A stretch of 64,000 nt of DNA from Symbiodinium sp. CCMP2592 (Eukaryota; Sar; Dinophyceae; Suessiales; Symbiodiniaceae). Positions 11,022 to 52,350 of the stretch are shown one piece after another; the stretch's first letter is position 1; the number at the start of each line of letters is the position of its first letter. Position numbers and translations under genes: made by a program. A model generated the notes under the pieces. That model did no database searches. It worked only from the letters and a program-made list of their open reading frames with translations, and had not been told where the DNA came from. The stretch is taken from assembly GCA_905221615.1 (NCBI GenBank), contig CAJNDT010003857.1, positions 367,501 through 431,500 of the forward strand, in the 5' to 3' direction.

Positions 11022-11284
11022 ATGTGACCAATCCAGCTGCGCTCTTGCACCCAGGAACTGGTCGCAGGTACGTTTACCTGTCCATATGACAAAGAGCTTC
11101 GTTGGCGCGAGCTTTGTCAAAGGACCTCGCGCCCCCTGCAAACTTAAAAACGAAAGGAGCATGAAAACAAGAAAAATCCATGGGTCAAAGCATGTACCTA
11201 CAAAGGTTTGCAAACAGAAACACCAAAGAAAAGTGGACATGTGAATGCAGGTTGGTCGCATGTACAGCAGAATAACACAAACAG
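11022..11284 (-). repeat. 263-bp terminal direct repeat, left copy (3' end of the retroelement)
   Basis: Nearly identical to 52,088-52,350; I see differences at two positions (C/T near 11,111 and G/T near 11,255). It contains a foldable segment with GACAAAG pairing with CTTTGTC (about 11,089-11,118). On the minus strand the inner part starts TGTTTGTG and ends GTCACA, so an LTR-like TG...CA reading is possible. No polypurine tract precedes it. Confidence 0.9.
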
Positions 11285-11298
11285 GCCCCCGAAGGGGC
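11285..11298 (-). other. C(UUCG)G hairpin at the element's 3' internal border
   Basis: On the minus strand a five-base-pair stem GCCCC/GGGGC closes a TTCG loop, i.e. an exceptionally stable C(UUCG)G tetraloop in RNA. It directly abuts the 3' direct repeat, where an LTR retrotransposon would carry a polypurine tract. It could be a structural mark for reverse transcription or RNA 3' processing; that role is inference. Confidence 0.5.
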
Positions 11299-11359
11299 AC
11301 AGAAGCTTCAAGGTGCACGTCTTTTGCGACTGTTCCCAATCATCGTGTTAGCAGCAAGC

Positions 11360-11710
11360 CTATTCACGTCTACGCTTCTTGATGGCTCTCTCACTGCGGT
11401 CAATAACCTGGTGGTAATAGCATCGGCAATGATTGTGACCTTCGTCTGCTCGAGCACATACCCGGCCACAGTTCGTATGAGAGCACAATCCTGAGCATCG
11501 TGACATCCTTTGTTGAAAATCCGAAGAATCACGTAGGATTTCGACAACACGAAGCATCAACCGAATAAGGTCTTGTGGGTGGATGTCGTTAGAGCGAAGA
11601 GCATCGAGGGCATCGGCAGCTGATGTTTGCACAATATCCTCCAAATTGTCATCGCTGGCTCGCCTCGACCCTGGTTCATAACGAAGAGTACGACGACCAC
11701 TGGACGACAT
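11360..11710 (-). CDS. Small Cys/His-cluster protein of the retroelement
   Basis: A 116-aa frame from an internal ATG at 11,710 (the frame is open upstream to 11,782). The first half is charged and helical-looking (LEDIVQTSAADALDALRSN, then LIRLMLRVVEILRD). The second half has a dense cluster with spacing C-x3-C-x2-(T/N)-x-C-x3-C followed by H-x-H-C-x-C-x2-H, ending in a basic tail (KKRRRE). This looks like a zinc-binding, possibly nucleic-acid-binding module, comparable in role to the zinc knuckle of Gag-type proteins. It is the last ORF before the 3' repeat. The family is not recognised. Confidence 0.6.
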   Translation of the reverse strand: MSSSGRRTLRYEPGSRRASDDNLEDIVQTSAADALDALRSNDIHPQDLIRLMLRVVEILRDSSDFQQRMSRCSGLCSHTNCGRVCARADEGHNHCRCYYHQVIDRSERAIKKRRRE

Positions 11711-11861
11711 GATTACACACTGAGACTTCAAAAAGCTTGAGCACTGCGCATCAGCACGAGAGAAGGCAAAACCTAGGGCCACATGTCAAGACTCGCATGA
11801 CAAAGGACACCATTTATTCTCATGTGGCGTGATCCACTCAAGTCCAGGTCGTATCTACACT

Positions 11862-12212
11862 TTACAGTGGGTGAACAATGCGGCGCACATTAAGATCATC
11901 GATGAAAGCCGATCCAATACGCACTCGATCTTCATTGGAGTGGTGAATCCATTCCACATTTGCATGGCGCACTTGGGCAAGACGCCAAAGCTGCTGAATA
12001 TTGAAGAATGTGCGAGCGCCAACCAATCGGATAATAGTGTAATACCATTCTTTGCAAACGGACGCAAACACCACAATATGAGGTAATGCGGGAGCTTCAC
12101 ACGTAATCGGCGTGTACACGCTGGGTCCTTGCATAAAGAACTCCCATACTTCAGCACGAAGATCCATACCTTCTGTTCTGCATTGTGTAACAAACTGTTC
12201 AAGATCATACAT
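11862..12212 (-). CDS. Small ORF of the retroelement, unknown
   Basis: 116 aa starting at a Met within a longer open stretch. The composition is protein-like, with alternating hydrophobic residues (HIVVFASVCKEWYYTIIRLVGAR) and a short charged end. A preceding minus-strand stretch at about 12,264-12,440 (PSEGCRHFLDAMWELTVL) is in a different frame but similar in style, so the gene may have an intron or frameshift near 12,260. No family is recognised. Confidence 0.4.
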   Translation of the reverse strand: MYDLEQFVTQCRTEGMDLRAEVWEFFMQGPSVYTPITCEAPALPHIVVFASVCKEWYYTIIRLVGARTFFNIQQLWRLAQVRHANVEWIHHSNEDRVRIGSAFIDDLNVRRIVHPL

Positions 12213-12524
12213 CGTATGGAATCCATGTCTGCGAAGAGTAACATCCAGAGTCTCAAGTGGATCTCATGGTGGAAAGGTGAAGAAGAAAATAATATGGCGT
12301 CGGGTGCTGATGAAAGTCAGCACTTTCTCGGTCAGAACAGTAAGTTCCCACATGGCGTCGAGGAAATGTCTACAACCTTCAGAAGGCACTACGAAAGCAT
12401 TCGGGCTCACATCCTGCAGTAAAAGAAGGACAACTTGTAGATTGCAAAAGCAACAAAAACTCATGAGCTCGCATAACGAACCGCAATACAGCATTTATTT
12501 CTTTGATCAGCACACTGCTCAAGT

Positions 12525-12857
12525 TCACCACGATGATTCGTGTGGCCAGGTTCTCACAAAGTGAACGGACTGCGTAGTATGCGGAAAGGCAGCAACTCGA
12601 GAAATCGAAGATGTGAATGGTAAATGTTGACCAAATTGCCTTAATTGGAAGGCGTTCAAACGGGGTGGAATCCCCGTACGGTTCGCAAGCTCATCGCACA
12701 CCTTCCTCTTCAGGTCATCAATCGTAGAATCTGTAGGCAAAGAGAGCCAGAAACCCATCTCACGTCCGCCAGAGCATATATCCGGAGGTATAACAACTGG
12801 AATCCTGACCATCGGAGCTGGGGCCGGAAGGGCCGCCATACTTGCTGTTCGCTTCAT
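12525..12857 (-). CDS. Ubiquitin-like-domain protein of the retroelement
   Basis: 110 aa from an internal ATG at 12,857 (open upstream to 12,971). After a short N-terminal tail rich in Ala, Pro and Val (VRIPVVIPPDI), the protein has LPTDSTIDDLKRKVCDEL, then NRTGIPPRLNAFQLRQFGQHL. This follows the ubiquitin pattern: a strand, T-I-x-x-L/V-K-x-K-x helix, GIPP turn, then Q-x-L/F and G-x-x-L. No C-terminal GG for conjugation is visible, so a non-conjugated ubiquitin-like fold is more likely. A ubiquitin-like protein in a retroelement is unexpected and might act on host protein turnover; that is inference. Confidence 0.6.
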   Translation of the reverse strand: MKRTASMAALPAPAPMVRIPVVIPPDICSGGREMGFWLSLPTDSTIDDLKRKVCDELANRTGIPPRLNAFQLRQFGQHLPFTSSISRVAAFPHTTQSVHFVRTWPHESSW

Positions 12858-12980
12858 CTTACAAATTGAGCCGTACGCAACTTCGAAGTGTGATGCTGCT
12901 AGGATGCACAACACATGTCTGCGACTCAGAAGTTGCAAGCAAGTTCGGGACAACAGTTTTGTCTTCCTCATACGTCCGGC

Positions 12981-13565
12981 TTACCTGATATGACGAGAGC
13001 CTCCAAGTGAAACAGTGGTGCTTGATCTTGACCTAGATCTCGAACGGGATCTCTCTCGGACCTCCGATTCACTCATGGATCTGCTTCTCCGAGCAGCAGG
13101 AGCAGTCTGTTGCCGTCGACGGGGCAATGCACCGCGCTGTTGAGGATCCGAAAGAGTCGATCCATCCATGACAGTCGGTGCAGCGTCACTCGAAACAGCT
13201 CCAAGAGAGGCATCTGGAAGAGAGGGAGACGGAGAGAAAGGAAAACGGCCAGAAGCAGAGAAGGACACAGGAAGGGGAGGAGGAAAAGCAGGAGGGGGAG
13301 GAGGAGGAGGAGGGAGGGGAGAAGGAGAAGGAGAGGGGGCAAGAAAAGAAGACAACGAAGGCACAGAGGACACAGAGACAGAGTGGGAGGGAGCGCCAAG
13401 ATGTTGTGCAACAAGGGCATCTGCATCGTTCTGAATCCGGCGTCGAAGATGAGAAAGAAAGACTGCCCTCTGGCGGCGATCTCCCAAGATCTGAAAAAGA
13501 GCCGTGACTTGATCTCCATCCAGACTGCTGATTATGTCATTGCAGCTCAGCAAAGAGCCAGACAT
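12981..13565 (-). CDS. Pro-rich and Arg/Ser-rich protein of the retroelement
   Basis: About 194 aa from ATG 13,565 (open upstream to 13,643). The N-terminus is a compact helical segment (DIISSLDGDQVTALFQIL, then QRAVFLSHLRRRIQ). The middle is a long Ser/Pro-rich linker with an eight-proline run. The C-terminus is basic with SRSMSESEVRERSRSRSR repeats, i.e. an RS domain as in splicing factors. In a mobile element this suggests binding of the element RNA or recruitment of splicing/export factors. The strand is clear because the opposite strand only gives low-complexity Glu/Gly/Arg peptides. Confidence 0.6.
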   Translation of the reverse strand: MSGSLLSCNDIISSLDGDQVTALFQILGDRRQRAVFLSHLRRRIQNDADALVAQHLGAPSHSVSVSSVPSLSSFLAPSPSPSPLPPPPPPPPAFPPPLPVSFSASGRFPFSPSPSLPDASLGAVSSDAAPTVMDGSTLSDPQQRGALPRRRQQTAPAARRSRSMSESEVRERSRSRSRSRSSTTVSLGGSRHIR

Positions 13566-13659
13566 TGATACGTTAACAGCGGTGCATAAGTACTTGAACC
13601 AACGTCTGCCAAGACTCACATTTTTGCAAACTGATGCACACAAATGGACAGAACATTGG

Positions 13660-14180
13660 CGGACACTTTTTTAACCTCAAAGCCGCCTATATGACTCTAA
13701 CATGCGCGACAGGAAATTCGCACGCCGAGAACGTAACTTGGTGAAGTTGGCACCAACATGTCTCGATACACATGAGCTGGTATGTACAAGAAGGCTTCAA
13801 TCGAGAACCATGGCAAACTCGTAATCGCATCAGAAACTTGATATGTCGCAATGTCAGAGTGCGACACTGCACTGACAGGCACAGGAAAGACTCACTGCAT
13901 CGTGGAAGAAGATGTGTAAAATTGAAAGTAGCAGAGTCATTGGACAGTCCATGGTAATTGTGTGCTTGAAAACATCGTCCCAACCCGTGTATCAACCATC
14001 GCTGCCACTGGATGTGCTGCTGGCTTCGGCAAGAATCGGGATTGTCACATCTCTGTGTGCTGACATGCACACTGCTACGTACCATAAGAAAAGAGAATAT
14101 GCAGAATCGGGGCGCATCCTCCATCCAAACATCACGGAACTGGCAACGGGTCATGGTCTATCGAGTGGTGGAGCATACTT
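13660..14180 (-). other. Retroelement stretch with only short frames
   Basis: No single convincing frame. The minus strand has several short peptides, one with good composition at 13,697-13,882 (ITSLPWFSIEAFLYIPAHVY) and one membrane-like peptide upstream. This may be a degenerate ORF of the retroelement. Confidence 0.4.
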
Positions 14181-14287
14181 CTTGAGCACATGCAGCAAAA
14201 TTGCCTGAAAACATGCAAGCCACCCAATGCCAAGAGAGTGAGAGACATACGATGCGAGTGCACGAAGCGAACCTAAGACAGTCTTTT

Positions 14288-15373
14288 TTATGCGTCAAGT
14301 GACATGTCACTCTGGCATTGCTCGTCGGAATCGTCGGCATTACAATCAGAGAAAGAAACAACAAAGGAAGAGCAAGAAGACCCAGGAAAGGAGGAGCAAG
14401 ACCAAGACCGCAGAGAGGAGGAGCAGGAGGGAACAGAGGACACAAGGAGAGGACCAAAAGAAACCGACGAAGACACGAGGGAAGCAACCGAGGAGGCAGG
14501 AGAGAGAGACAACAACGGAGGACGAGCAGACGGACGAGCAGGACCAGACAAAAGAGGAAGAGAGGAAGAAGGAGAAGGAACCGACGAAGACAAGGAACGA
14601 CCAGGCGAGGAGAAAGGAAAGGCAGACAAAGACAAAAGAGGAGAAGAGAAGAGAGGACCAGAGGGGACAGACAAGGAAAGAGAGGAACGGACAGGAACAC
14701 GAAGACCAAGAAAATGCGCAAAGGAAAGACAAGAGGCATGGGGTGAAACGGGAACATGTTGCTTGACACAGAAAAGAACCATCATGATGCGAGTTCCAGT
14801 GAAAGGCATGGTGGCATGAATCACATTTCCATCAAAGCAGCAAGGTTGTCTGACATCCAAGAGTCTGCCTTTCAAGTGAGCACCATGCGATGCAACATTG
14901 CAATTGAAATCATCAACTGTATATGTAAAGCGACCTCGGTCATCCACGACAAATAATTCTCCACCTGTCCAGTCTCCAATGGCCCAGCCAATACTTGGGC
15001 CATGGTTGTTTGAATCTTTGTGTGGAATAGTCCGGACATTGCGATTGATCTGTATACTGGTAACTGCCAGATCCGAGAATTGGGAAGCATAATGTAGCAT
15101 TCGGACAATCAACTTAGTAAGGCCAGGGAACCGGAATGTGTTCTTTGTAAACTGCAATCTTCCTCGAGACTGCACGCCAGAATACAAGCCAAGCAATATC
15201 TGATCTGCATGTGCTTGGTCTGTAGATCGCACCTTCTTTCGACTGTAACTCAACCACATCCGTCGAGGAATACCATCAAGAATACGAAATAGATATGCAG
15301 CCAACTCGTCCTGTGACTGAAAATTGAAACCATCCGCATCTACATCAAAAGGGCTACGCTCTATGGTTGTCAT
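14288..15373 (-). CDS. 2-oxoglutarate/Fe(II) dioxygenase-like protein of the retroelement
   Basis: 361 aa from ATG 15,373. The core (residues about 80-205) has IPHKDSNNHGPS, then GDWTGGELFVVDD, then FDGNVIHATMPFTGTRIMMVLF. This is the H-x-D...H facial triad of 2OG/Fe(II) dioxygenases, with an Arg ten residues after the distal His to bind 2-oxoglutarate. The GGELFV and FDG-x-x-x-H patterns resemble TET/JBP-type and related oxygenases more than prolyl hydroxylases, but I cannot fix the subfamily. The C-terminal ~140 residues are a Ser/Pro/Leu-rich linker ending in an acidic tail. The substrate could be a nucleobase (DNA or RNA) or a protein. It lies between the 553-aa ORF and the RS-domain ORF on the same strand. 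Confidence 0.75.
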   Translation of the reverse strand: MTTIERSPFDVDADGFNFQSQDELAAYLFRILDGIPRRMWLSYSRKKVRSTDQAHADQILLGLYSGVQSRGRLQFTKNTFRFPGLTKLIVRMLHYASQFSDLAVTSIQINRNVRTIPHKDSNNHGPSIGWAIGDWTGGELFVVDDRGRFTYTVDDFNCNVASHGAHLKGRLLDVRQPCCFDGNVIHATMPFTGTRIMMVLFCVKQHVPVSPHASCLSFAHFLGLRVPVRSSLSLSVPSGPLFSSPLLSLSAFPFSSPGRSLSSSVPSPSSSLPLLSGPARPSARPPLLSLSPASSVASLVSSSVSFGPLLVSSVPSCSSSLRSWSCSSFPGSSCSSFVVSFSDCNADDSDEQCQSDMSLDA

Positions 15374-15609
15374 GTTGACATGGGACTGAGCAAAAGTTCG
15401 GCACGCAAGACGAAATGATGCACAGAGCGCTGCAATGCATTAGCCACTTGAGACTGTAAACCCTAGCATCCGGACAGTTTAGTTTTCAAGCGTACGGTCC
15501 ACGGCGGAGTGCAACACTCAGAATGTGGGCAAGCGATTGATCTTATTCACTCTGTAGCCGGAAGAAAACAAGCGAAGACATCCGGGGGTGAGGAGGCAAC
15601 AACAGTCAC

Positions 15610-17271
15610 TTATGCATCACGTGCCCACGATGTCCAAAAGACAGCAGTGCCGACTAAGACACTCCGACTGGAACGAAACATCCAACGACCATCCTGGCCG
15701 TGAATCAAATCGCCGAAATGTCCGAATGTTTGATCGGAGGCGTTGACAGCCTTAAAATGATTGTGTTGCCTCACAAAGGTCCAACCTAGCGCCGCACATG
15801 TACGAGAATCAACTTGCTTTCCTCCGAAGCGGCGAGCCCCCAACATCGAATTTCTCATAGCGATCAAATGCTCCGGCTGGGATCCGTCAAGCTTTGGAAG
15901 CCGAATAGCAGGTTTCGGCCAAGACATGCGGCCATAAAAGCCGGTAGATGGGACCCATGTGCGGTCCGCCCTATCGAAGAATGATGGTCTCACAACTTCC
16001 TGATTGATGATCGAGGCCAAGTCCTGAGGGACTGTATTGTGAACAAAGGGCACAGCGAAACAGGTGGCAGGATCATCCGGAAGCCTCGTTGTTGAAATAA
16101 GGAAAACTCCTTGCGGAGCTTCATGTGAACCATCATCAGCAAGGCCCGTGTCCGGGTCCGTGTTTCCCGGGAACAACCAATAAGATCCACGGCCGGCCTG
16201 GAGATCTTCTCGAACAAACGGACGAAGGCGAGACACGGATGATAGAATACGGGCAAGGCTCTGAATTTGCTTTTTGGCATCCGGGCCCATAGCGAAGTAA
16301 TCCTGGGCATCCGACCATGAGTAGTTGGCATGATGGTCGGCACCTGCCAAAATGGTGGCTATCCATCTCTCCTGGAGATCGAAGGGTCCAGTCGGAAGGA
16401 CTGGAACAACAATTTCGGCCGCACTTTTGATACGATTGACGTCCTTCATGATCGCAGTCCGGTAGTGTAACAACACCCGTTCAATTTGAGACCAATACTT
16501 CTTCTTTTCTTTTTCGGAGGCGGTGGGATCGAAATTCCACACATTCATTCCTGCGACAGCCCGAATGGTATAGAATTGGGGCCACATCGAATGTTGAACA
16601 TCAGGCCTGTCCAACTTTGTAGGTTCCAGAAATTGGACCCAAATCGGTGGTCCGGAAGAGGGCTGAACACAAACCCATTCGGTCGAGGGAGCTGGAAGCT
16701 CCGGTCCATCCGGAACTGCATACTTGTCGAGGCTGGCGTCAACAATAGCAAGCTGAGCAGAGGATGACGGCTTGTCTTCAATAGGTAGGCGTTCATCACC
16801 GGCCAGCTGACGACGCTTTCTTGGGAGAGGCGGGCACGGCTTCAAAACCGGGCTCCTTGAACGATCGTCCCGATTATTGCCAAACAACCGAACAGAGGTC
16901 AGGCTTTCAATAACCCGATTTGCCATACCTTCGTCATGAATCTGAATAGACTGGGCCGAAGATCCACTACCTTCAGTGAGAGTCAGAAAAGGCGAAGGGG
17001 GAGGAGCTCGGGGAACCGCGGCATCCACATGAACTTGAGGGAGCGAAGGAGTCGAAGAAGAAGGAGGGGCAGGTGGAGCAGGAAGAGCGCGGCGGCCTCC
17101 GGAAGCACTTCCGGTCGGCTGTGCCCATTCTGGAAGTGTGTCTGGCGGTGCAAGGGCTCCGTTCACCTCTTGTGCAACCCTCTTTCGAATATACATTTCC
17201 ACGGAGCCACTTACAGGGCCAGGAGGGCCCGAGGACTTCGGGAACAGATTTAGACTGTCTTCCGCGGACAT
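15610..17271 (-). CDS. 553-aa ORF of the retroelement, unknown
   Basis: Starts at ATG 17,271, 137 bp downstream of the stop of the RT gene. The first ~180 residues are Pro/Ser-rich and disordered-looking, with basic patches (PLPRKRRQLAG). From residue ~190 the protein looks folded: PSSGPPIWVQFLEP, NVWNFDPTASEKEKKKYW, HANYSWSDAQDYF, then GVFLISTTRLPDD, VHNTVPQDLASIINQEVVRPSF and STGFYGRMSW. The late segment weakly recalls ADP-ribosyltransferase or KptA-type folds (a His, then L-x-x-I, later G-F-Y), but I would not assign it. It is intact, so probably under selection in the element. A structural or Gag-like role is equally possible. Confidence 0.6.
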   Translation of the reverse strand: MSAEDSLNLFPKSSGPPGPVSGSVEMYIRKRVAQEVNGALAPPDTLPEWAQPTGSASGGRRALPAPPAPPSSSTPSLPQVHVDAAVPRAPPPSPFLTLTEGSGSSAQSIQIHDEGMANRVIESLTSVRLFGNNRDDRSRSPVLKPCPPLPRKRRQLAGDERLPIEDKPSSSAQLAIVDASLDKYAVPDGPELPAPSTEWVCVQPSSGPPIWVQFLEPTKLDRPDVQHSMWPQFYTIRAVAGMNVWNFDPTASEKEKKKYWSQIERVLLHYRTAIMKDVNRIKSAAEIVVPVLPTGPFDLQERWIATILAGADHHANYSWSDAQDYFAMGPDAKKQIQSLARILSSVSRLRPFVREDLQAGRGSYWLFPGNTDPDTGLADDGSHEAPQGVFLISTTRLPDDPATCFAVPFVHNTVPQDLASIINQEVVRPSFFDRADRTWVPSTGFYGRMSWPKPAIRLPKLDGSQPEHLIAMRNSMLGARRFGGKQVDSRTCAALGWTFVRQHNHFKAVNASDQTFGHFGDLIHGQDGRWMFRSSRSVLVGTAVFWTSWARDA

Positions 17272-17408
17272 TGTCGAGTTTACAGGAAGCTACAGAATAT
17301 ACAAGGCACAAAAGCTCTCGAGCAAAGGATACATGGCAAGCAACCAGCTCAATGGTACATGGACTGAGACACTGTGCAAGCGCGGGCATCAACGAAGGCA
17401 AAGTCTGT

Positions 17409-20234
17409 TTACACTGCAGTCGGGCGAGCGCGAAGATTGTTAAACTGTAGCCTAACACGTTTCAGAATGGGGTGCATCATCAACGGATCGAATCCCTGTC
17501 GTACATAGGACTGTAGTAGCTGATCAAGATCGGCCTCACGCTGCTCCAACGGCCAAGAAGCACGTGCAATCAAGTGAGCTCTGGATCGAAAGCTGCTTAA
17601 CAGTGTCCGTGTGTTGGCGGCAGAGTTGGGGTGTAAGAACTTCCAGGTCTCAACAGGCTGGACATACTGTACTCGTAGTTCCTGTACATCCACATGAAAA
17701 CCCAAGAAAAGGTCTCCATCCTCATACTCAAGTACGATGGGCGGTATGTATACATCCTGGTGCAGAAACGCTTGCACAGCAGCATAGTTGGCCTGGCGAT
17801 CAAGAATCAAGCTCATCCGATTGTCCACGTATCGAACCACAAGGCCGAAGGTTGGCAAGCGAGAAGACTCTAACAGACATTTTCCAAAGTACATGTGCTC
17901 GTATAGGCTTACCACGGCATGGCAAGCTGCCGGAGAGAAATGGCTTCCCATCGGTGCACCTCGGATTTGTTGAATGGCCTGCTGACCCACCATGAATAGA
18001 TTGAACTTGAAAGACACCTGTACAGCCTCCAGAAATAGGTCCATTGGGACGGCAACTCGTTTGTCATTCAACAGGCAATGCCGACCACGGATAGTTTTCA
18101 TAACCGACATGTTGTTTTCCAAGTCCACAGTCACCACAACGCCTTTCAAGGCATGATCAAGATCCGCATCCGAGACGTCGTAAAAACGACAAAGCAATAT
18201 GCGAAAGGTAATCATGAACCGCTCCCTTGGAATGCTCACGAAAAAACCTGACAAGTCTTGATTGTGCATGGCAAGCTTCTGTCTGTCTTGATCAGAGCTG
18301 TGACATCGCTTCTCAAAGAAAGCGTGTATGTTCTGCCAAAGCAAGATTGCATCGTTGTAAGATCGGGTGTGAGGACACACCTCAGCAACAAGCATCTCTG
18401 TGACTCGCGCCATCACAACCAAGAACTGGCGAGCCGGGTGAGAGGCAAAACTAACGATTGGCCTGCCTCCTTTCCATTCTTTCTTGAACTTGGGGAGAAT
18501 GTAAGCCCATGACACACGGGCAGCACGAGATCCAAAACGGAAGGGAAAGGATTCAAGAATCCGAGGTGGCACTGCATGTTCCATCTGAACCATAATCGTC
18601 GAAGGATTTAACGACAATGGCTTGAAGACCGATTCAGCAGTAAAAGTGTTCTGGAGCATCATCCAATACTTCACAGGGCAAAAAACATGCGCATGCGAGC
18701 CTTCATGATCTCGGACATGCCACACCAATCCTTTGGTCCTTTTTCGCAACTCACGAACCTGATCAACCGACCAATGTGTTCCGACGTGTTGTGAGTGCAT
18801 CTTCCATGCCTTCTGCCACACACTTCGAATATCAATAGTCGGATAATGCATCAAGCCATGATAATCGATCCAATGCCTCACGTCTTCAAGAAACATCGTC
18901 CAATGATCCGTGGCGTTCATGAATACCGGATTGGAGCAACTGGACTGGGCCAACTGAGTCAAATCAGGTGGCAGGGTCAGCAACGTGGCAGAAGAAGCAA
19001 TGTGACCCTGGACAACAGTCAGGTGTGGATGACGTCGAAGAAGTTCGTGGCAGCAACATGTGACACCAGCCTGTTGCGGCTCCTCATGCGGGTCCCACGA
19101 CTGCAAGATTGGTTTATGCGAAAACAACACATCTTTGATTTTAGGGTGACTTTTGGCAACGAGCGAGGTCGCTGGAATGTGGTACGGCAGCAGTCGATCC
19201 GTCGATACATCCAAAATATCTCCCAACATGCCACGAACCAAGCGTTTGAAGCCTACTTCAGGCAGCAAGAACGGAGTGGAAAGGGGGCGGCATGTAGTTG
19301 GGCACCTCAACTGTCGAAATTGCAGCACAGTGTTCAATCTGGACCTGCAGATCGTCTCATAGAACGGGTCACCCAGATGAGTGGCCATCCTGAATAATCT
19401 GTAGAGAAAATCCGAGTCAACTCGGTTGCTGCGCAGATATTTTTGGGCAAGAAAGGACTTCAACCCGTCAGAAGCTAAGTCAAACAGAATCTGATAACTG
19501 TATACAATGTTCTGAACAATGTGTGTCGAACGGAAGACCGAAGGAGTCAGTCCAGTGAGCTGGAAATTCCGACGTCGAAAGCGTCGAAAGGTTCTCCACG
19601 AGGTCACAAATCTGCGAACACATCTGACTGGATCCGAGTTGGCAATCTGTGCATGTTTTGCTCTGACAAGAGAGCGAACCCAAGGAGCATTGAGGTGAGG
19701 CTGTAGCAAATTGATAAATGTCTGTTCAATTGTGTGCAAACAATCGACCTGTGGGACATGCATGATCAACAGAGGAATGGCCATGTGATAATTCTGTCGT
19801 CGATAATGCCAAAACAGCGAAAGTTCACCGCACACTGACTTGCCGGCCCTGATCTGTTGGAATTTCCCCCATCTTGTACGCTCACGGTCGCCCAGTGTTT
19901 GGGATGATGATCCGACATACATGAATTTCTGCTGTAACTCAGGCTGGAGAAAGATGCGACAATAAATCACCGACTGCGTCTGAAAGAATTTCCAGGTGTA
20001 GCTGGAGCATTTTAAACGTAGCTGAGAGGTCAATGGCGACTGTACAAGCCCGAACTCACAAGCAAGCAAAAGGAGTTTTCCACGGATCCAAATAACAATG
20101 TCCATGCACTGTCGTCCGGACATGGTAGGTGTCTCGTAGAGACCTTGGAAAAATAAATGAGCATTCCGAAGTAAATCCACTTCACTTCGGTGCCGTTTCC
20201 ACCAACCTTGTGGCGGATTGTCGTTGCGATACAT
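17409..20234 (-). CDS. GIY-YIG endonuclease plus Penelope-type reverse transcriptase
   Basis: 941 aa from ATG 20,234. Residues 89-182 match a GIY-YIG nuclease: VIYC, KFMYVGSS, a following Arg-rich stretch, Glu170 and LQPHLN. The RT core lies at about 600-840: motif A DLSGFFVSIP (Asp660), motif B IRGAPMGSHFSP, motif C YVDN (802-805), then LFLGFHVD. The GIY-YIG domain is N-terminal, the permuted order known from Naiad/Chlamys-type Penelope-like elements; classic Penelope has it at the C-terminus. Motif C has Asn where most RTs have a second Asp. The protein would cleave target DNA and reverse-transcribe the element RNA in the nucleus. It follows the 401-aa ORF by 27 bp. Confidence 0.9.
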   Translation of the reverse strand: MYRNDNPPQGWWKRHRSEVDLLRNAHLFFQGLYETPTMSGRQCMDIVIWIRGKLLLLACEFGLVQSPLTSQLRLKCSSYTWKFFQTQSVIYCRIFLQPELQQKFMYVGSSSQTLGDRERTRWGKFQQIRAGKSVCGELSLFWHYRRQNYHMAIPLLIMHVPQVDCLHTIEQTFINLLQPHLNAPWVRSLVRAKHAQIANSDPVRCVRRFVTSWRTFRRFRRRNFQLTGLTPSVFRSTHIVQNIVYSYQILFDLASDGLKSFLAQKYLRSNRVDSDFLYRLFRMATHLGDPFYETICRSRLNTVLQFRQLRCPTTCRPLSTPFLLPEVGFKRLVRGMLGDILDVSTDRLLPYHIPATSLVAKSHPKIKDVLFSHKPILQSWDPHEEPQQAGVTCCCHELLRRHPHLTVVQGHIASSATLLTLPPDLTQLAQSSCSNPVFMNATDHWTMFLEDVRHWIDYHGLMHYPTIDIRSVWQKAWKMHSQHVGTHWSVDQVRELRKRTKGLVWHVRDHEGSHAHVFCPVKYWMMLQNTFTAESVFKPLSLNPSTIMVQMEHAVPPRILESFPFRFGSRAARVSWAYILPKFKKEWKGGRPIVSFASHPARQFLVVMARVTEMLVAEVCPHTRSYNDAILLWQNIHAFFEKRCHSSDQDRQKLAMHNQDLSGFFVSIPRERFMITFRILLCRFYDVSDADLDHALKGVVVTVDLENNMSVMKTIRGRHCLLNDKRVAVPMDLFLEAVQVSFKFNLFMVGQQAIQQIRGAPMGSHFSPAACHAVVSLYEHMYFGKCLLESSRLPTFGLVVRYVDNRMSLILDRQANYAAVQAFLHQDVYIPPIVLEYEDGDLFLGFHVDVQELRVQYVQPVETWKFLHPNSAANTRTLLSSFRSRAHLIARASWPLEQREADLDQLLQSYVRQGFDPLMMHPILKRVRLQFNNLRARPTAV

Positions 20235-44262: not shown

Positions 44263-44423
44263 AAAGATTTAGGGAAAGATTTGCTAGGGGATCGGGCGAG
44301 GCGGGGATGTCAAAAACGGGGATTTTGATAAGGAATATTGGGAAGTATAGGGGGGACCCTTGGTATAAAACGTGTAAGGCGTTTGCGGGTGGGCGCGGGA
44401 GTTACATATGGCTATCCCTAACT
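44263..44423 (-). repeat. Right terminal inverted repeat, 161 bp
   Basis: Perfect reverse complement of 24,779-24,939. It ends CTATCCCTAACT and is followed by the second GTTTA (44,424-44,428). It contains GGTATAAAACG on the plus strand, pointing outward into the interrupted exon. Confidence 0.97.
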
Positions 44424-44428
44424 GTTTA

Positions 44429-44875: not shown

Positions 44876-44887
44876 TGTTTTCCGTCT

Positions 44888-45225
44888 CTGATATAACTAT
44901 TCTCCAATCCTCATTCCTTATATCTCTGATATTCTCCAATCGAAATTCCTTATATCTCTGATATATTCTCCAATCCTCATTCCTTATATCTCGGATATTC
45001 TCCAATCGAAATTCTTTATATCTCTGATATATTCTCCAATCCTCATTCCTTATATCTCTGATATTCTCCAATCGAAATTCCTTATATCTCTGATATATTC
45101 TCCAATCCTCATTCCTTATATCTCGGATATTCTTCAATCGAAAATCCTTATTTCTTTGATATATTCTCCAACCCTCATTCCTTATATCTCTGATATTCTC
45201 CAATCGAAAGTCCTTCTATTCCTGA
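44888..45225. repeat. ~65-bp tandem repeat, about five copies
   Basis: Alternating half-units TATTCTCCAATCCTCATTCC and TATTCTCCAATCGAAATTCC, each followed by TTATATCTCTGATA, give a ~65-bp period. It lies in the presumed intron right after the FDWDEL exon. Confidence 0.9.
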
Positions 45226-45230
45226 TATAT

Positions 45231-46612
45231 TCTCAAAGCCTCGGGCTTTCTAGGTCAAAGCCAAGGGCCTGCAAATCCCTGGTCCCGGGCCGGACCCTGT
45301 TAATCGGGGGGGGGTTTCCTGCTATTCTGGGGGGGGCGGGGCCTGCAAAGGGGTAGCCTTGGAAAACTTGACAAACCTATTCTTTTTATATACGGTTTAA
45401 TTAGGGAACCACCTGTTTCTGGCAGCAGAAGATATCACCCAAATCCCAGGGATCCCAAGGCCAGGGATCTCTGACCCTTCCATCTCAAAGCTTCGGGCTT
45501 TCTAGGTCAAAGCCAAGGGCCTGCAAATCCCTGGTCCCGGGCCGGACCCTGTTAATCGGGGGGGGTTTCCTGCTATTCTGGGGGGGGCGGGGCCTGCAAA
45601 GGGGTAGCCTTGGAAAACTTGACAAACCTATTCTTTTTATATACGGTTTAATTGGGGAACCACCTGTTTCTGGCAGCAGAAGATACCACCCAAATCCCAG
45701 GGATCCCAAGGCCAGGGATCTTTGACCCTTCCATCTCAAAGCTTCGGGCTTTCTAGGACAAAGCCAAGGGCCTGCAAATCCCTGGTCCTGGGCCGGACCC
45801 TGTTAATCGGGTGGGGTTTCCTGCTATTCTGGGGGGGGCGGGGCCTGCAAAGGGGTAGCCTTGGAAAACTTGACAAACCTATTCTTTTTATATACGGTTT
45901 AATTAGGGAACCACCTGTTTCTGGCAGCAGAAGATATCACCGAAATCCCAGGGATCCCAAGGCCAGGGATCTCTGACCCTTCCATCTCAAAGCTTCGGGC
46001 TTTCTAGGTCAAAGCCAAGGGCCTGCAAATCCCTGGTCCCGGGCCGGACCCTGTTAATCGGGGGGGTTTCCTGCTATTCTGGGGGGGGCGGGGCCTGCAA
46101 AGGGGTAGCCTTGGAAAACTTGACAAACCTATTCTTTTTATATACGGTTTAATTAGGGAACCACCTGTTTCTGGCAGCAGAAGATATCACCCAAATCCCA
46201 GGGATCCCAAGGCCAGGGATCTCTGACCCTTCCATCTCAAAGCTTCGGGCTTTCTAGGACAAAGCCAAGGGCCTGCAAATCCCTGGTCCCGGGCCGGACC
46301 CTGTTAATCGGGGGGGGTTTCCTGCTATTCTGGGGGGGGCGGGGCCTGCAAAGGGGTAGCCTTGGAAAACTTGACAAACCTATTCTTTTTATATACGGTT
46401 TAATTAGGGAACCACCTGTTTCTGGCAGCAGAAGATATCACCCAAATCCCAGGGATCCCAAGGCCAGGGATTTCTGACCCTTCCATCTCAAAGCTTCGGG
46501 CTTTCTAGGTCAAAGCCAAGGGCCTGCAAATCCCTGGTCCCGGGCCGGACCCTGTTAATCGGGGGGGGTTTCCTGCTATTCTGGGGGGGCTTCCTGCCTG
46601 CTATTCTGGGCA
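45231..46612. repeat. ~250-bp tandem repeat, five and a half copies
   Basis: Units start with CAAAGC(C/T)TCGGGCTTTC at about 45,234, 45,486, 45,737, 45,987, 46,237 and 46,489, >95% alike by eye. Each contains CTGTTAATCGG followed by a G-run, resembling the transposon's own TTAATCGG end, a TTTTTATATACGGTTTAATTA segment and CCCAGGGATCCC. The array fills the intron between the disrupted exon and the transposase exon. The small ORFs inside repeat with the unit and are not genes. Confidence 0.92.
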
Positions 46613-46656
46613 GAGAAAAAGATAATTAATAAATTCTCTTGCTTCTGCTTGTGCAG

Positions 46657-49503
46657 GAGAAGGCAGAAAGGGAGTACTGGCGAAGCATGATGCGAATGAG
46701 GGGAGGCGGTGATGAGTCGCAGCATGAGCAGGAGCAAGAGAATGAGGAGACAGCCATAGTCCTGGACGATGAGGACAAAGCCCTCTCCCAGACTCCTGTG
46801 GCAAAGAAAGAAGCGGATGAGAGCATGAGCCCACCCACGGACCGTGTCAAGCGACAGCTGAGCTTTGGATCGGCTTCATCAGCCGAGTCCAAGCAGTCAA
46901 GGCTGCATAAGTTCTTCCGGTCTCCGTCATCCTTCTCTGACGACAGCAGCATCCATGAGACGCCCAGTCCGCCGCCCAAGAGGCCAAGACATCGCATGGA
47001 AGACACTCTTCGTGAGATGTTGAAGAGTGGGCAGCTGTCGCTTGATGGGAAGAAGCTGACCCTGACAGCCCATGAGGATGTCATCCCAACGCTGCAGCAG
47101 GAGGTGGGCAAGAAGTTTGGGAGGTTCGGAGGTCGGCCCATGAAGCCGGTCAGCGAAAGGAGAGGGATCATGGGTGGCCAGAAGTCCAACCGGAGAAAGG
47201 CCAATGAGAAACCTCGGCAGTTTGAGTTGCCTGTGTCCATGAAGAACCGCATCTGCCAGCAAATCTATGAGACCCGTGGGCACCATCCCGCTGAGCAAGA
47301 CATGCTCAAGGCCTTTGCAAAGAAGAGCAAGATGAGGTTGGACAAGCTGCAGGACATCTGGGCCAACAGGAGCGCATGGGCTCAGCTCGAAAAGAAGGAC
47401 CATGGCAACATGATCGGTGGGGAGCATTCCAAGCAGAGGCCAAGGATGAGAGCAGAAGGTGCTGGTGCCAAGCGACAATTCCCTGAGGTCGTCCAGAAAC
47501 TTGGCCATTGGCTTGACAAAGAACGAGCCCATGGTCATCAGGTGCTGCAGCGGCACCTGGCATGGCAGTATGAGCTGCTCCTTCAGGAACACATGGTTGA
47601 GCTTACGGAGCTGCTTGAGTCTGAGAAGAGTAAGGACATGAGCACAGAGGAGCGGCAGCAGCATGAGGTGAAGCTAAAGCTTGCAGAGAAGCAGATTGAG
47701 GCCATGCATGGGAGCGAGAAGCTGATGAACAAAAGGGCAAAGACATTGGCCACATGGCTTGGGGCTGAGACGAGGGTTCCACACCTCGTGACCCAGATCA
47801 GTTCCGTGGAGCAGCAGGTGAGGGCTGAGCTCTCGTGGCAACACCATGACTGGTGCATTCACAAGGTGGCATCAGCAGATGAGGACTTCATGAGACAGTA
47901 CTTTGCCAGGCCCAATGAGATCACCCCAGCCATTAGAAAGGCATGTGTTCTGGGCTTCTCCGATCAGGTGCCACTCTGGCTGAAGTCTGGGTCCAAGAAA
48001 GAAATCATGGCTTCATGGGAAGTAGCAGGCCTCAAGAAGAAGAAGCAGCATCCGCACCTGCATGAGCCGCAGCAGACCGCAGATGAGACACACCCGGCAG
48101 CTGAGGAGCCTCATGAGGAGTCGAAAGCTGAGGAGCCTCATGAGGAGTCGAAAGCTGAGGAGCATCATGAGAAGCAGCCACATGAGCAGGAGGAACCAGG
48201 TGATGAGTGGAAGCTCGCCATGCCAGATGAGAAGCATGAGATGGCCCATTTGACCACCCGTCGGCAAGAGAAGGCCGATAGGTACAGGGTCACATTTGAG
48301 GCCATGCAGCTCGTGAGTGGCTTCTTCGACCATGAGAAGACCCCCGAAGGCCACTGCATGAGAGGCATTCTGATAGTTCCCGGCCAGCATGCACGGTTGG
48401 ATAACATTGACGAGCATGGGAAATGGAAAGAGGATGAGACATTCTTCTACATGGGTCAAGAGAGACGCCACATCGGAGGTGAGAGCTGCGGCCGAGCTCT
48501 CATCAGCTGGCGAAAGCTGCGAGATGAGATGCCACAAGCATTCCGGCATTTCTCCGTCATGAGCCAGCCTGCATCCAACAGCGATGGGATTTGCTTGCCA
48601 TGGGTCATAAAGGATCAGGCTAGGCAGTTCCCATTGAGTGTGTGGATGAGGGATGCGTATGGGCCTGCATTCACATCAGATACGGTCAAGACCCTCTTCA
48701 TGGGGCATCAGGTTCAGTCGAGCATCATGCCGAAGATGACATCAGCATTACAGCTCACTGATACAGATTTTTCACATGCCTTTAAGGCATCAGTGAGAAG
48801 AGCCATCGATGAGCAGAGCATGAGGCAGGCGGCTCGCCGGAATGAGGAGGATGGGCACCATGAGCAGCAGTTCCCGAAGATGGGCATCAAGGAGATGGCA
48901 TTGGCCATCGACGCTGCCATGGAGCACATGATCCAGATGAATGAGAAGACGGAATGGGTCCTGGCTGGGCTCCGCCGCAATGGGTTCTTGGCCCTGAGAC
49001 CTGATGAGCATGGCAAGATGAGGAAGTGCGATCACGAGGCATGGGCCAAGGACAAGCCATTGGGCTGCAAGAGGATCCATCCGACATGGGTCGCCAATCG
49101 GTATCAGCATGAGAACAATGGAGACATTGAGAAACCCAATTGGGCTCGCATTGAGGGAGCCACTGAGTTGAGTGACCTGGCCCATTGGCACTACAACGAT
49201 GGGTTCAAGGATGCCCCAAGCTGGGAGGACATCCCATTTGATGAGCATTCCGAGCCTGAATGGCAGGCATGCGCCAAGTTCCAGATGCCATTAGACCTGA
49301 GAAGGGCCATGCTGGCAAGAGAGGCGACCATGAGCGATCAAGCCAAGGCAAAGAGGGAGAGGAGAAGAGAGAAGAATAAGACCAGGCGGCAGAAGAAGCA
49401 ACAGGAGCATCAGCTCACGGATGAGGCCCGGGAGGAGCTGAGAGCAAGCATGCAGGAAACCTCCAGGCTCCTCGCCCTTCCTACTTGCCCTAAACCCCCA
49501 TGA
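46657..49503 (+). CDS. pogo/Tc1-mariner-type DDD transposase (main exon)
   Basis: Follows a TTGTGCAG acceptor at 46,656; open to TGA 49,501. Residue numbers count from the frame opening at 46,639. A basic N-terminal region (MKNRICQQIYETRGHHPAEQ and CGRIFGGRP-like basic stretches) may bind DNA. The catalytic core is suggested by CVLGFSDQVPLWLK (Asp442, like the N-M-D-E/Q-T-P motif), WMRDAYGPAFT (Asp672) and MTSALQLTDTDFSHAFK (Asp708, like T-S-x-L-Q-P-L-D...FK of pogo/Tigger/jerky proteins). Between the first two lies a ~230-residue insert with HEESKAEE repeats, unusual for the superfamily. It would cut and paste the surrounding element at TA. Upstream exons are at 44.4 kb and probably 21.9-24.8 kb. 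Confidence 0.65.
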   Translation, partial: EKAEREYWRSMMRMRGGGDESQHEQEQENEETAIVLDDEDKALSQTPVAKKEADESMSPPTDRVKRQLSFGSASSAESKQSRLHKFFRSPSSFSDDSSIHETPSPPPKRPRHRMEDTLREMLKSGQLSLDGKKLTLTAHEDVIPTLQQEVGKKFGRFGGRPMKPVSERRGIMGGQKSNRRKANEKPRQFELPVSMKNRICQQIYETRGHHPAEQDMLKAFAKKSKMRLDKLQDIWANRSAWAQLEKKDHGNMIGGEHSKQRPRMRAEGAGAKRQFPEVVQKLGHWLDKERAHGHQVLQRHLAWQYELLLQEHMVELTELLESEKSKDMSTEERQQHEVKLKLAEKQIEAMHGSEKLMNKRAKTLATWLGAETRVPHLVTQISSVEQQVRAELSWQHHDWCIHKVASADEDFMRQYFARPNEITPAIRKACVLGFSDQVPLWLKSGSKKEIMASWEVAGLKKKKQHPHLHEPQQTADETHPAAEEPHEESKAEEPHEESKAEEHHEKQPHEQEEPGDEWKLAMPDEKHEMAHLTTRRQEKADRYRVTFEAMQLVSGFFDHEKTPEGHCMRGILIVPGQHARLDNIDEHGKWKEDETFFYMGQERRHIGGESCGRALISWRKLRDEMPQAFRHFSVMSQPASNSDGICLPWVIKDQARQFPLSVWMRDAYGPAFTSDTVKTLFMGHQVQSSIMPKMTSALQLTDTDFSHAFKASVRRAIDEQSMRQAARRNEEDGHHEQQFPKMGIKEMALAIDAAMEHMIQMNEKTEWVLAGLRRNGFLALRPDEHGKMRKCDHEAWAKDKPLGCKRIHPTWVANRYQHENNGDIEKPNWARIEGATELSDLAHWHYNDGFKDAPSWEDIPFDEHSEPEWQACAKFQMPLDLRRAMLAREATMSDQAKAKRERRREKNKTRRQKKQQEHQLTDEAREELRASMQETSRLLALPTCPKPP

Positions 49504-49543
49504 GACTCTCCTCCTGTCATGCCACCAGCCAAGGTATGCCGCC

Positions 49544-49855
49544 ATGAGGGATCTGCCAGCATCGGCCTCGAAGAAAGGCAAGGCGAAGGCCAAGGCGAAG
49601 GCCCAGGCCAAGGCCGAAGCCAAGGCCAAGGGCATGAGCTTGCCCAAGATGGGCAAGATGGCCAAAAAGCAGCATAAGAAGCAGCTCAAGAAAAACGCAT
49701 TGAGCAAAGCGGTGGATGAGCTCCCTGAGCCGCCATTGCCTCCGCCACCCGGCCCACCAGCTATGAGTGCTGACACTGGTGAGCATGACATGACCAAGGG
49801 CACATGGAGGATAGTCAATGAGGCCTGTGGGTTCGAGAGAAAATTAGCTGGTTGA
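49544..49855 (+). CDS. Lys/Ala-repeat exon upstream of the protease
   Basis: Plus-strand stretch with KGKAKAKAKAQAKAEAKAKG, a basic helix-forming repeat, then PEPPLPPPPGPPA and TKGTWRIVNEACGFERK. It follows the transposase stop by 40 bp and precedes a TAGCCGCAG acceptor at ~49,889. It could be the first exon of the protease gene. Such Lys/Ala repeats resemble histone-H1-like tails. Borders uncertain. Confidence 0.45.
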   Translation: MRDLPASASKKGKAKAKAKAQAKAEAKAKGMSLPKMGKMAKKQHKKQLKKNALSKAVDELPEPPLPPPPGPPAMSADTGEHDMTKGTWRIVNEACGFERKLAG

Positions 49856-49889
49856 GCAAAGCCCATCATAAGCTCTCCCTAGCCGCAGG

Positions 49890-51340
49890 ACGCTGGCATT
49901 TCGCTGTATGGGCGGCATGGGTCCATTCTGGGTGTCGGCCGTCAGAACTGCCACATGCTGCTGGAGAAGGACCATTTCTTCCCCAAGCAGCAGAAGGCAT
50001 GGGTCAGCAAGAGCCATTGTGAGCGATTGCCAGAGGGTGAGCATAAGGTGTGGAAGTGGGCCCAGATGTCCTTCTACCGGGCCTGGAAGCAGGAAATGCT
50101 GCTTGACATGGGGCTCTTGAGCCAGGACCTGGATCAGCTGGATGGGCTTGAGCAGGTTCACATCCTCCCATACCCAGCCATTGAGGCCGGCGGCATAGAG
50201 CTGCAACAGCTGCATTTGGGCTGGCGAGTCCTGCTTTGGCACATGCTCCAGAGCTCAATGCCCTGCAAGAGCATGGGCTTCATTAGTCCTGGATGGACAC
50301 AGCCACTATATCTGCATCATGACAATGCCAAAGTGGATGTGGATGCATTCATTGAGTGCATCAAAAAGCAGATGAGTGCTCATACACTGAACTTCCTCCC
50401 CCTGGGGTCTGCTGGGCACTGGGTTTTGCTCGTCATAGATGCGACACATGAGTCTGAGACTCCCAAAGTGAGGCACACCATGCTTTTTCCTCCTTTTCCC
50501 TATTATAAGGTAGAGTTGTGCATGGGGACTCCTTATTTCGCATTCGCACGCAGAGCCAGCCCTGAGGTACTATGACTCCCTGCCGGATGAGTCCCAGCGA
50601 TGCAGGGACTACGCTGAGAAAATCTTGGCATCCCTGCTCTCCATGGGCCTGGTGCATGAGGCGGTGCTGCCTCCTCGCAGGAACAAGGTCTTCCAGGGAG
50701 TCGATGAGTGCGGATTGCATGTTCTGGCTGCCATGGAGCAAGAGGCCGCAAAGGCCATGGGGTTTGGAAAGGCCAGCACTGGGTGGCCTTCGCATTCGGC
50801 GAAGAAGTGGCATGAGCGGCTGCATAAGGTCACAAATGCTCTCCGCACTGAGCAGACCAAGCGACTGGATGAGCTGAAACAGCATAAGAAGAAGGAGGAG
50901 GCCTTGGGAATCAAGATACTCGGACCTTTAGTATTTAGGCCCATTTTCCCTTTTGTAATTAGTCTTAGACATACAGGGACCCTTTTCTTCCTGGGCTTCC
51001 CAGGATGAGAAAAGAGCGAGAGCACATGGCGGCCATGGCTGAGAAACGCATGAGCAAAGGCCTTGAGCTGACTGCGCTTCAGAAGATGGCCCATGAGGTC
51101 ATTAGCCAAGGCAAAGTCCTTGAGATCGAGGACATGCCCCAGGCATACTGGGATGAGAGAAATCGAATCGAACTCCATGAGATTGGAGTCTGCAGCCGCT
51201 GCCGGCATGCCTCAGGCTGCCTGAGCTGCGATGAGGGTAAGCTCCTCGCATACTGGATGAGGAGGGAAGCCCGCAGATTGGGCAGGAACATTGCCCCTAA
51301 GTACAAGCTTAGCTCTGCTGGACATGAGCTGGTCCAATGA
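49890..51340 (+). CDS. Ulp1/C48-type cysteine protease of the transposon (three exons)
   Basis: Exon 1 (~49,890-50,472) ends in LPLGSAGHWVLLVIDATHE; exon 2 (~50,567-50,893) starts RYYDSLPDESQRCRDY and contains NKVFQGVDECGLHVLAA; exon 3 (~51,005-51,340) has CSRCRHASGCLSCDEGK and a stop. HW, the D of YYDSL, Q of FQ and C of DECG are the His-Asp-Gln-Cys set of Ulp1/SENP (C48) proteases, in the right order. The first intron has AGG at both borders (a GC-AG reading), the second ends CTTCCCAG. Ulp1 proteases are known passengers of several eukaryotic DNA transposons and may remove SUMO from host proteins or the transposase. The third exon adds a Cys cluster not typical of Ulp1. Confidence 0.75.
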
Positions 51341-51584
51341 GGAAAAGTCTGCCATCATGAGTTCTTTACGGTTTAGGCTTCAGGGTTTGGGGTTTAGGGT
51401 TAAGTCATAAGCCTCTAAATCCCCTAAATCCTTATTTCGGGGATTTTCGGGGATGGCCCCGTCTAATCGGGGGGGGGTTTAAATGAGCTCCGGTACTATA
51501 GGGGTGGGGTCTAATGGACCTCTTCATTAAGCCCATGAAATGCCCGGGACCGCCCCGTCTAATCTGGGGGGGTATCTTAATCGG
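51341..51584. other. Right subterminal region of the DNA transposon
   Basis: No gene. It contains GGTTTAGGGTT words, two TCTAATC(G/T)GGGGGG segments (51,461-51,480 and 51,558-51,571) and the terminal TCTTAATCGG. The G-runs mirror the C-runs of the left end. The element ends at 51,584, followed by TA. Confidence 0.6.
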
Positions 51585-51586
51585 TA

Positions 51587-52087
51587 AACGACATTAGGTG
51601 GGACCAAAGCAGGCAAGGAGGAGCTCCAGAAGGGGTTGCGGCGGGGGGAGCGTTCACGATCCATGGCGGGATATGAGAACAGCAACTGACTGCAAAGCTC
51701 AAGCCGGAATGATCTCCAGAAGCAACTCCGGAATGCGACTCCGATCTGATTTCCAGAAATGTGATTTCCACTCAGTGATCTCCACTTGAACATGTTGTGA
51801 AACGGAATTGATTTCCGGAGCTGCTAACACAAGAACCCCGGTGGGCCGGCAACTTCGCCGAATAGCGACAAGGCCCTCGTGAGGGAGCTCTTGCCGAACA
51901 CAACTGGAAAGGCTCCCACTGACCCGCCTTCTGGATGTTCTGATCGTCCAATGCAGAGACTCTCATGATTATGCACAGACAGATTGCAGCAACCGTACAA
52001 AGCTTCGAGAGACATGTCCGAGTTTTCAGAAAGCAAAGTAAGGTAAAAAGTTTTGAACAACTGCGAAAATCAATATGATGGTTTCAA
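51587..52087 (-). other. Leader of the retroelement
   Basis: Minus-strand leader between the 5' direct repeat and the point where the DNA transposon entered. Small minus-strand frames exist (e.g. 51,772-51,966) but none is convincing. On excision of the transposon this region would join 21,590 and lead into the 401-aa ORF, with a stop in the joined frame, so that ORF starts downstream. Confidence 0.5.
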
Positions 52088-52350
52088 ATGTGACCAATCC
52101 AGCTGCGCTCTTGCACCCAGGAACTGGTCGCAGGTACGTTTACCTGTCCATATGACAAAGAGCTTCGTTGGCGTGAGCTTTGTCAAAGGACCTCGCGCCC
52201 CCTGCAAACTTAAAAACGAAAGGAGCATGAAAACAAGAAAAATCCATGGGTCAAAGCATGTACCTACAAAGGTTTGCAAACAGAAACACCAAAGAAAAGT
52301 GGACATGTGAATGCAGGTTTGTCGCATGTACAGCAGAATAACACAAACAG
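52088..52350 (-). repeat. 263-bp terminal direct repeat, right copy (5' end of the retroelement)
   Basis: Same orientation and nearly the same sequence as 11,022-11,284. Matching starts at ATGTGACCAATCC and stops at ACACAAACAG in both copies; flanks then diverge completely. Confidence 0.9.

Follow-up and report, generated by a model that had tools for sequence, protein, structure and literature searches.

A three-level nest of Polinton-like virus, DNA transposon and retroelement at an AlgH-like locus of the dinoflagellate Symbiodinium sp. CCMP2592

Layers of the locus

The DNA considered here, called the window, is a stretch of 64,000 nt from Symbiodinium sp. CCMP2592 (assembly GCA_905221615.1, contig CAJNDT010003857.1, positions 367,501-431,500 of the forward strand) and contains a three-level nest in which a Polinton-like virus lies in a DNA transposon that, in turn, lies in a retroelement, with borders readable at each layer. 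The whole window was scanned for repeats, open reading frames (ORFs) and base composition, the assembled sequence being the only material. Overall, the locus very probably records three successive insertions in a dinoflagellate genome, the retroelement followed by the transposon and the transposon by the virus, inside an AlgH-like gene. The layers and their borders are the following (positions of the window; strand in brackets where one applies; basis after the semicolon).

10977..10986: left copy of ACACACACAT, the candidate target-site duplication of the retroelement; word search
10987..52384 (minus): retroelement, probable full extent, with 10,987-11,021 and 52,351-52,384 as putative extensions beyond the direct repeats
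11022..11284 (minus): 3' direct repeat of the retroelement, 263 bp; repeat search
21591..21592: TA target duplication of the transposon, left; sequence
21593..51584 (plus): DNA transposon, probably Tc1/mariner-pogo-like, 10,347 bp without the virus; ends, motif, composition
24774..24778: target-site duplication of the virus, GTTTA, left copy; P0007 comparison
24779..44423: Polinton-like virus of 19,645 bp; inverted repeats, identical over 161 bp
44424..44428: target-site duplication of the virus, GTTTA, right copy; P0007 comparison
51585..51586: TA target duplication of the transposon, right; sequence
52088..52350 (minus): 5' direct repeat of the retroelement, 263 bp; repeat search
52385..52394: right copy of ACACACACAT, the candidate target-site duplication of the retroelement; word search

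A preliminary description of this DNA had placed the virus at 24,779-44,423 and a TA-flanked transposon at 21,593-51,584, and both placements are borne out by visible borders: the virus begins and ends with inverted repeats (24779-24939 and 44263-44423) that are alike over 161 bp, with 0 mismatches and GTTTA on both sides, and the transposon has matching TACCGATTAA ends beside TA on both sides. The same description had taken the 263-bp direct repeats as the bounds of the retroelement; the repeats are indeed present and differ at 2 positions, while the outer border is corrected by about 35 bp outward on each side. The direct-repeat block without its inner layers measures 11,337 bp.

The virus and its junction with the transposon

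The virus interrupts a gene of the transposon, whose two parts are recognised through the relative P0007.

24537..24778 (plus): transposon gene, first coding block of the P0007 model, cut by the virus at 24778; P0007 residues 1-80
44429..44876 (plus): transposon gene, continuation past the virus; P0007 residues 80-230

The gene model P0007 is a computed one and was compared with the window at the protein (codon) level. Its residues 1-80 correspond to 24537-24776 at 100% and its residues 80-230 to 44424-44876 at 99.3%, with the virus exactly between; among the 11 relatives of the transposon protein it alone covers the virus site. The short flanks, joined after removal of the virus and of one GTTTA, give the reading of P0007, and the target duplication of the virus is best read from this comparison as GTTTA (or TGTTTA). 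Seven intron placements mimicking the P0007 protein were derived by hand, and they end in AC, CT, TG, GT, TT, TT and TA, none of them in AG. Dinoflagellate introns as a rule end in AG. Since no placement ends in this way, the best reading of P0007 is that of a transposon copy without the virus, which would provide, at the codon level, the empty site that the preliminary description had proposed to look for.

The content of the virus is as follows.

25317..29201 (minus): replication protein, 1294 amino acids (aa), with PolB-like motifs, a superfamily 1 (SF1) helicase and an HNH-like end; profiles, motifs
29282..30208 (minus): retroviral-type integrase (rve); PF00665, E-value (E) 6e-10
32271..33041 (plus): A32-type packaging ATPase; PF04665, E 1e-10
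33491..35800 (minus): tail-fibre-like protein with S74 chaperone domain; PF13884, phrog_1980
35862..37324 (minus): putative major capsid gene in two overlapping frames (36641-37324 and 35862-36758); position, presumed resemblance
38218..39093 (plus): DUF5901 protein, putative minor capsid or penton; PF19254, E 3e-7

The long inverted repeats, the 5-6-bp duplication together with an rve integrase and the A32-type ATPase found here are those of Polinton-like elements. The replication protein has at least 63 relatives, of which P0025 is 95% identical over 55% of the protein, and 27 proteins out of 64 (the query counted among the 64) were aligned. Two PolB-like aspartates are kept in 27/27 of them and an asparagine in 25/27, PolB being recognised by motif only; the Walker lysine and six HNH-like positions are likewise kept in 27/27. 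The helicase part is matched by a RecD profile (E 1e-6) and also by Pfam. A PDB search with this protein by itself returned 8 matches to IMP dehydrogenase (E 0.0025 to 0.93), which were judged to be due to chance. As regards the structural proteins, the capsid role (minor capsid or penton) of the DUF5901 protein is putative, as is the identity of 35862-37324 as major capsid, proposed from position and resemblance; the candidate major capsid ORFs had no convincing family match. The split frames of this putative gene suggest that the virus copy may not be intact.

No exogenous relatives were found in IMG/VR by five single-protein scans. A profile scan of the same database gave at least one locus (L001, 10001-16155), in which a replication protein of about 35% identity and an integrase of about 38% identity lie near each other; the other 13 virus ORFs had no match in this locus at E below 0.01.

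The DNA transposon

Beyond the interrupted gene blocks, the right arm of the transposon holds the following.

44898..46597 (plus): tandem repeats with units of 66 bp and 251 bp, in the span 44877-46656 skipped by the P0007 model; repeat search
46657..49500 (plus): transposase-like region; alignment of P0007 and P0008
49883..51337 (plus): C-terminal exons and a stretch that aligns with the C48 (Ulp1-like) protease part found in relatives; relatives, P0008 exons

The ends of the element carry TACCGATTAA exactly at 21591-21600 (plus strand) and 51577-51586 (minus strand), the sole two exact matches in the window. A further motif, TAATCNGGGGGG, is found 8 times where 0.02 would be expected; every occurrence lies within 21593-51584 and none in the virus, and five of the eight fall in a single tandem array. 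A database search for relatives of the transposon protein (window 46639-49503) found 11 among 7991 candidates scored. Two of these, P0007 and P0008, both come from Symbiodinium sp. CCMP2592 and agree with the window at 98.3% over 948 aa and 99.0% over 935 aa, respectively; P0008 is, by this alignment, a further copy of the transposon protein. The placement of the transposon in the retroelement is supported by the TA, the matched ends, the border motifs and the other copies of the transposon protein. P0007 and P0010 carry the database name Bbs2, which is probably an annotation error.

The TA target duplication and the short inverted ends are those of the Tc1/mariner-pogo group, and the transposase region gives weak fold matches to SETMAR, Mos1 and CENP-B. 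The transposon is probably Tc1/mariner-pogo-like on the basis of the TA target and the weak Mos1/CENP-B fold match. When the transposase alone was searched by sequence against the PDB, the two matches were to ribosomal proteins (E 0.26 and 0.64) and were judged to be chance. Of the relatives, P0011-P0013 contain the C48 family (PF02902), which is absent from P0007 and P0008; in the C48 region, profile A2 has matches to ChlaDub2 and SENP1, and the window's own pieces of 49883..51337 gave no C48 match in Pfam scans.

The outer retroelement

All four ORFs longer than 350 aa that lie between the direct repeats and outside the transposon are on the minus strand.

20262..21536 (minus): ORF1, 424 aa counted from a GTG, with its first ATG at 21467; no family match
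17409..20234 (minus): ORF of 941 aa with an N-terminal GIY-YIG-like part and a reverse transcriptase; motifs conserved in relatives
15610..17271 (minus): ORF of 553 aa; no family match
14288..15373 (minus): ORF of 361 aa; ORF list

The 941-aa ORF has six relatives with 48 to 80% identity. In the alignment of the seven proteins, motifs that we take to be those of a reverse transcriptase (QDLSGFF/QDLAGFF, RGAPMGS, RYVDN) are found in 5/7, P0004 and P0006 being without them; N-terminal blocks that we likewise take to be GIY-YIG-like (VIYCRIF, YVGSSSQTL, R) are found in 6/7, P0005 being without them, and are followed in 7/7 by an E..N block (EQTFINLL.P.LN). GIY-YIG ahead of the reverse transcriptase is the plan of permuted Penelope-like elements. 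No Pfam model reached its cut-off in this family, either with whole proteins or with segments: RVT_1 remained below it at E 0.0032 in one of three segments scanned, belonging to a relative, and at E 0.055 in one of seven whole proteins, and GIY_YIG_2 at E 0.12 in one of three N-terminal segments scanned, the window's own. The reverse transcriptase had no match in PDB sequence searches, single or as a profile, and its predicted structure, with a predicted local distance difference test score (pLDDT) of 34.9, was set aside. The catalytic motif of this ORF (about residues 800-805) is YVDN, not YxDD, in all five aligned proteins that have the motif.

The remaining ORFs are less telling. Those of 424 and 553 aa had no convincing match in Pfam scans. 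The 361-aa ORF has an HxD...H pattern that presumably resembles that of 2OG-Fe(II) dioxygenases, a likeness that no search supported: its region had no Pfam match, and a 383-aa frame at 14291-15439 had no PDB match. No integrase, RNase H, aspartic protease or recombinase was matched by Pfam in the scanned retroelement ORFs, a silence that says little here since the reverse transcriptase was missed by Pfam too.

As to the ends, the 263-bp direct repeats correspond to the pseudo-long terminal repeats (pseudo-LTRs) of Penelope-like elements. The repeats of these elements commonly, not universally, contain a hammerhead ribozyme. Rfam gave no hammerhead match in the window at the gathering cut-off; at E up to 5, the sole Rfam match in 10950-11450 was PhotoRC-I (E 0.2, chance level), and the direct repeat plus 36 bases folded no better than its shuffles (z -0.87; 37/200 at least equal). 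A target duplication immediately abutting the direct repeats was looked for and not found. The word ACACACACAT has exactly two copies in the window with both strands searched, at 10977 and 52385, that is 35 and 34 bp outside the repeats, and from this spacing the retroelement ends probably at 10,987 and 52,384. A shared 10-bp word arises by chance in 63/19,865 random flank pairs drawn from the whole window and in 88/19,652 from the host flanks. Penelope-like elements of the N-terminal GIY-YIG type prefer CA repeats or AC-rich targets. On its motifs, with no model above cut-off, the outer element looks like a Penelope-like element of the N-terminal GIY-YIG plan.

A disruption of ORF1 by the transposon was also considered and rejected. 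An in-frame stop lies just upstream of the joined site and the first ATG is at 21467, hence the transposon insertion is, by the reading frame, in the leader of the retroelement and not in ORF1, unless splicing matters.

The AlgH-like host gene

Outside the nest, parts of an AlgH-like gene are found on both sides.

10661..10918 (plus): AlgH-like N-terminal segment, probably two exons (about 10661-10789 and 10880-10918) with putative splice sites; frame reading
53602..54039 (plus): AlgH-like C-terminal exons, putative borders; PF02622, 28.3 bits

That AlgH-like exons flank the whole had been proposed at the outset and is sustained, firmly on the right and supportively on the left. The right-hand exons reach 28.3 bits with PF02622 (cut-off 27), or 28.2 with one further exon. 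The left frame reads GDLLLTHPL...FDQSLILI and VHGVVVNKA; joined to the right side with the presumed left intron removed, it raises 28.2 to 36.1 bits, while the reversed left part in its place gives 26.6. With the left intron kept, the joined peptide gives 26.7 bits, below the right side alone; no middle exon was recognised. The left exon alone had no Pfam match and the left frame no PDB match; the right exons had two PDB matches only, at E 4, which is chance level. The placement of the retroelement in the gene holds, as far as sequence can indicate, on the direct repeats, the candidate target duplication and the AlgH exons on both sides, and the nest most likely lies in an intron, in antisense orientation to the AlgH-like gene, which may remain functional with the nest inside.

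Regarding composition, G+C is 0.405 in the virus, 0.455 and 0.534 in the transposon arms, 0.499 and 0.486 in the retroelement, and 0.548 and 0.536 in the outer flanks. Telomere-like AAACCCT/AGGGTTT arrays are present at 24003-24277 in the left arm of the transposon, at 41470-41511 in the virus and at 54405-54712 in the right host flank.

Order of insertion and alternative explanations

The preliminary description held that insertion order and relative ages could both be read from the boundary pairs. The order stands, since the nesting itself implies retroelement, transposon, virus. The ages cannot be read in this way because 2/263 mismatches in the direct repeats and 0/161 in the inverted repeats do not differ (Fisher P 0.53), and relative dating from repeats was rejected. 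In addition, the inverted repeats of the virus may be made alike during replication.

Two observations weigh against the reading of three successive insertions: the transposon ends taken alone are modest evidence, because TACCGATTAA with one mismatch is found 5 times against 2.49 expected and 6/100 shuffles reach 5, and ACACACACAT is a low-complexity word noticed only after looking. An assembly artefact, in which repetitive blocks of different loci were joined into a nest absent from any one chromosome, could be invoked because the evidence is assembled sequence only. Mis-joins, however, are not expected to yield GTTTA and TA duplications at the junctions, as inserting enzymes would make, a transposon gene whose reading frame carries on past the virus and agrees with P0007, and AlgH-like exons on the same strand on both sides; such an artefact is therefore very unlikely. 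It is also conceivable that the P0007 model removed a same-site virus as an intron, virus and transposon having moved as a composite, P0007 being a computed model that also skips another 1.8 kb (44877-46656). This explanation is scarcely credible: it needs an intron ending in AC, CT, TG, GT, TT or TA, with 0/7 placements ending in AG, and P0007 differs at about 16/948 residues and is hence another copy.

The outermost level invites two further alternatives. The 263-bp repeats might be copies of some dispersed repeat unconnected with the element, and the reverse-transcriptase block might be host DNA or have been inserted separately, which would leave two sure levels only; in line with this, no duplication abuts the direct repeats, and the other retroelement ORFs have no convincing Pfam match, one of them having no PDB match either. 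On the other side are the difference between the repeats of just 2/263 bp, the common minus strand of the four long ORFs between them and the 10-bp word unique to both outer flanks, 34-35 bp beyond the repeats, and the alternative appears improbable. There is a minor, still appreciable, chance that the outer element, instead of being Penelope-like, belongs to the LTR retrotransposons or to the tyrosine-recombinase retroelements, given its terminal direct repeats with TG...CA just inside, its multi-ORF plan and the missing hammerhead. Against this stand the GIY-YIG-like blocks (YVG, R, then E and N) ahead of the reverse-transcriptase motifs, the lack of any integrase, RNase H, aspartic protease or recombinase match in the ORFs scanned, which counts for little with Pfam, and the absence of a split-repeat plan among repeats of at least 40 bp.

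In the preferred reading of three insertions, an element of about 11.3 kb with a GIY-YIG reverse transcriptase and a Penelope-like plan would have entered an AC-rich intron stretch of the AlgH-like gene in antisense orientation, duplicating about 10 bp of target. A Tc1/mariner-pogo-like transposon of 10.3 kb, of a family with a Ulp1-type protease part in its proteins, would then have entered a TA in the 5' leader of the retroelement, upstream of its first ORF. Last, the 19.6-kb Polinton-like virus, which has its own rve integrase, would have entered the coding block of the transposon gene and duplicated GTTTA.

Comparison with known systems

Nests of such depth have already been published (PMC8547959). 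In Cafeteria burkhardae, a virophage EMALE inside Ngaro4, itself struck by two Ngaro1 insertions, is described, a virus-retroelement nest of equal depth to that of the window (PMC8547959); in the Cafeteria nests the retroelements are innermost and the passages concerned describe no DNA transposon layer, whereas here the virus is innermost and sits in a transposon (PMC8547959). The Polinton-like viruses of cryptophytes have inverted repeats, 5-6-bp duplications, an rve integrase and nested elements, as here, but there retroelements interrupt viruses and here the virus interrupts a transposon (PMC12220804). In dinoflagellates, endogenous Polinton-like viruses are described in Polarella and the 'Dino group' (PMC10120064) and Maverick elements in Breviolum (PMC11071213). 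OmPLV of Oxyrrhis has a fused helicase and PolB, comparable to the helicase and PolB-like part of the window virus; in OmPLV the helicase comes first and PolB second, with a tyrosine recombinase and no rve detected, whereas the window virus has the order PolB-like, SF1 helicase, HNH-like, plus an rve integrase (PMC12721341). This order is similar to that of Tlr1 of Tetrahymena (pPolB-helicase-GIY-YIG), with HNH replacing GIY-YIG (PMC12721341). In the literature covered, consisting of titles, abstract starts and passages with few subscription papers, no Polinton-like virus inside a DNA transposon was recognised.

The transposon resembles Tc1/mariner-pogo elements (Mos1, CENP-B-type) in its TA target, short inverted ends and weak fold matches, and differs from them in its 10.3 kb, the introns of its gene models, its tandem-repeat arrays and its Ulp1-type-aligned region.

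Penelope-like elements with N-terminal GIY-YIG (Hydra, Naiad and Chlamys) were reportedly described by Craig et al. in 2021. The window retroelement looks like them in having a GIY-YIG-like part before the reverse transcriptase, pseudo-LTRs and an AC-rich target, and differs in its size of about 11.3 kb, its further ORFs, the lack of a hammerhead among the matches, its YVDN and its alveolate host. Chlamys elements are described in Ectocarpus, and that 2025 paper states that Penelope-like elements were unreported in TSAR before its brown-alga elements (PMC12477816). Within the same limited coverage of the literature, no Penelope-like elements in dinoflagellates and no GIY-YIG reverse-transcriptase element in an alveolate were recognised; the outer retroelement looks like a kind for which reports from this branch of the tree of life are rare.

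Implications

A single locus shows in which order retroelement, DNA transposon and virus were inserted; the target duplications of the inner two are seen directly, and the outer one has a candidate. Ends also become available for three element families of dinoflagellates, one of them carrying the name Bbs2 in databases. The GTTTA beside an rve-encoding virus, together with a close virus-free relative of the transposon, fits a virus whose own integrase would have inserted it into a recently moving transposon; the transposon with the virus inside could perhaps also act as a composite element and, on jumping, take the complete virus with it. The locus, finally, points toward alveolates as hosts of a Penelope-like group, which lends itself to direct testing.

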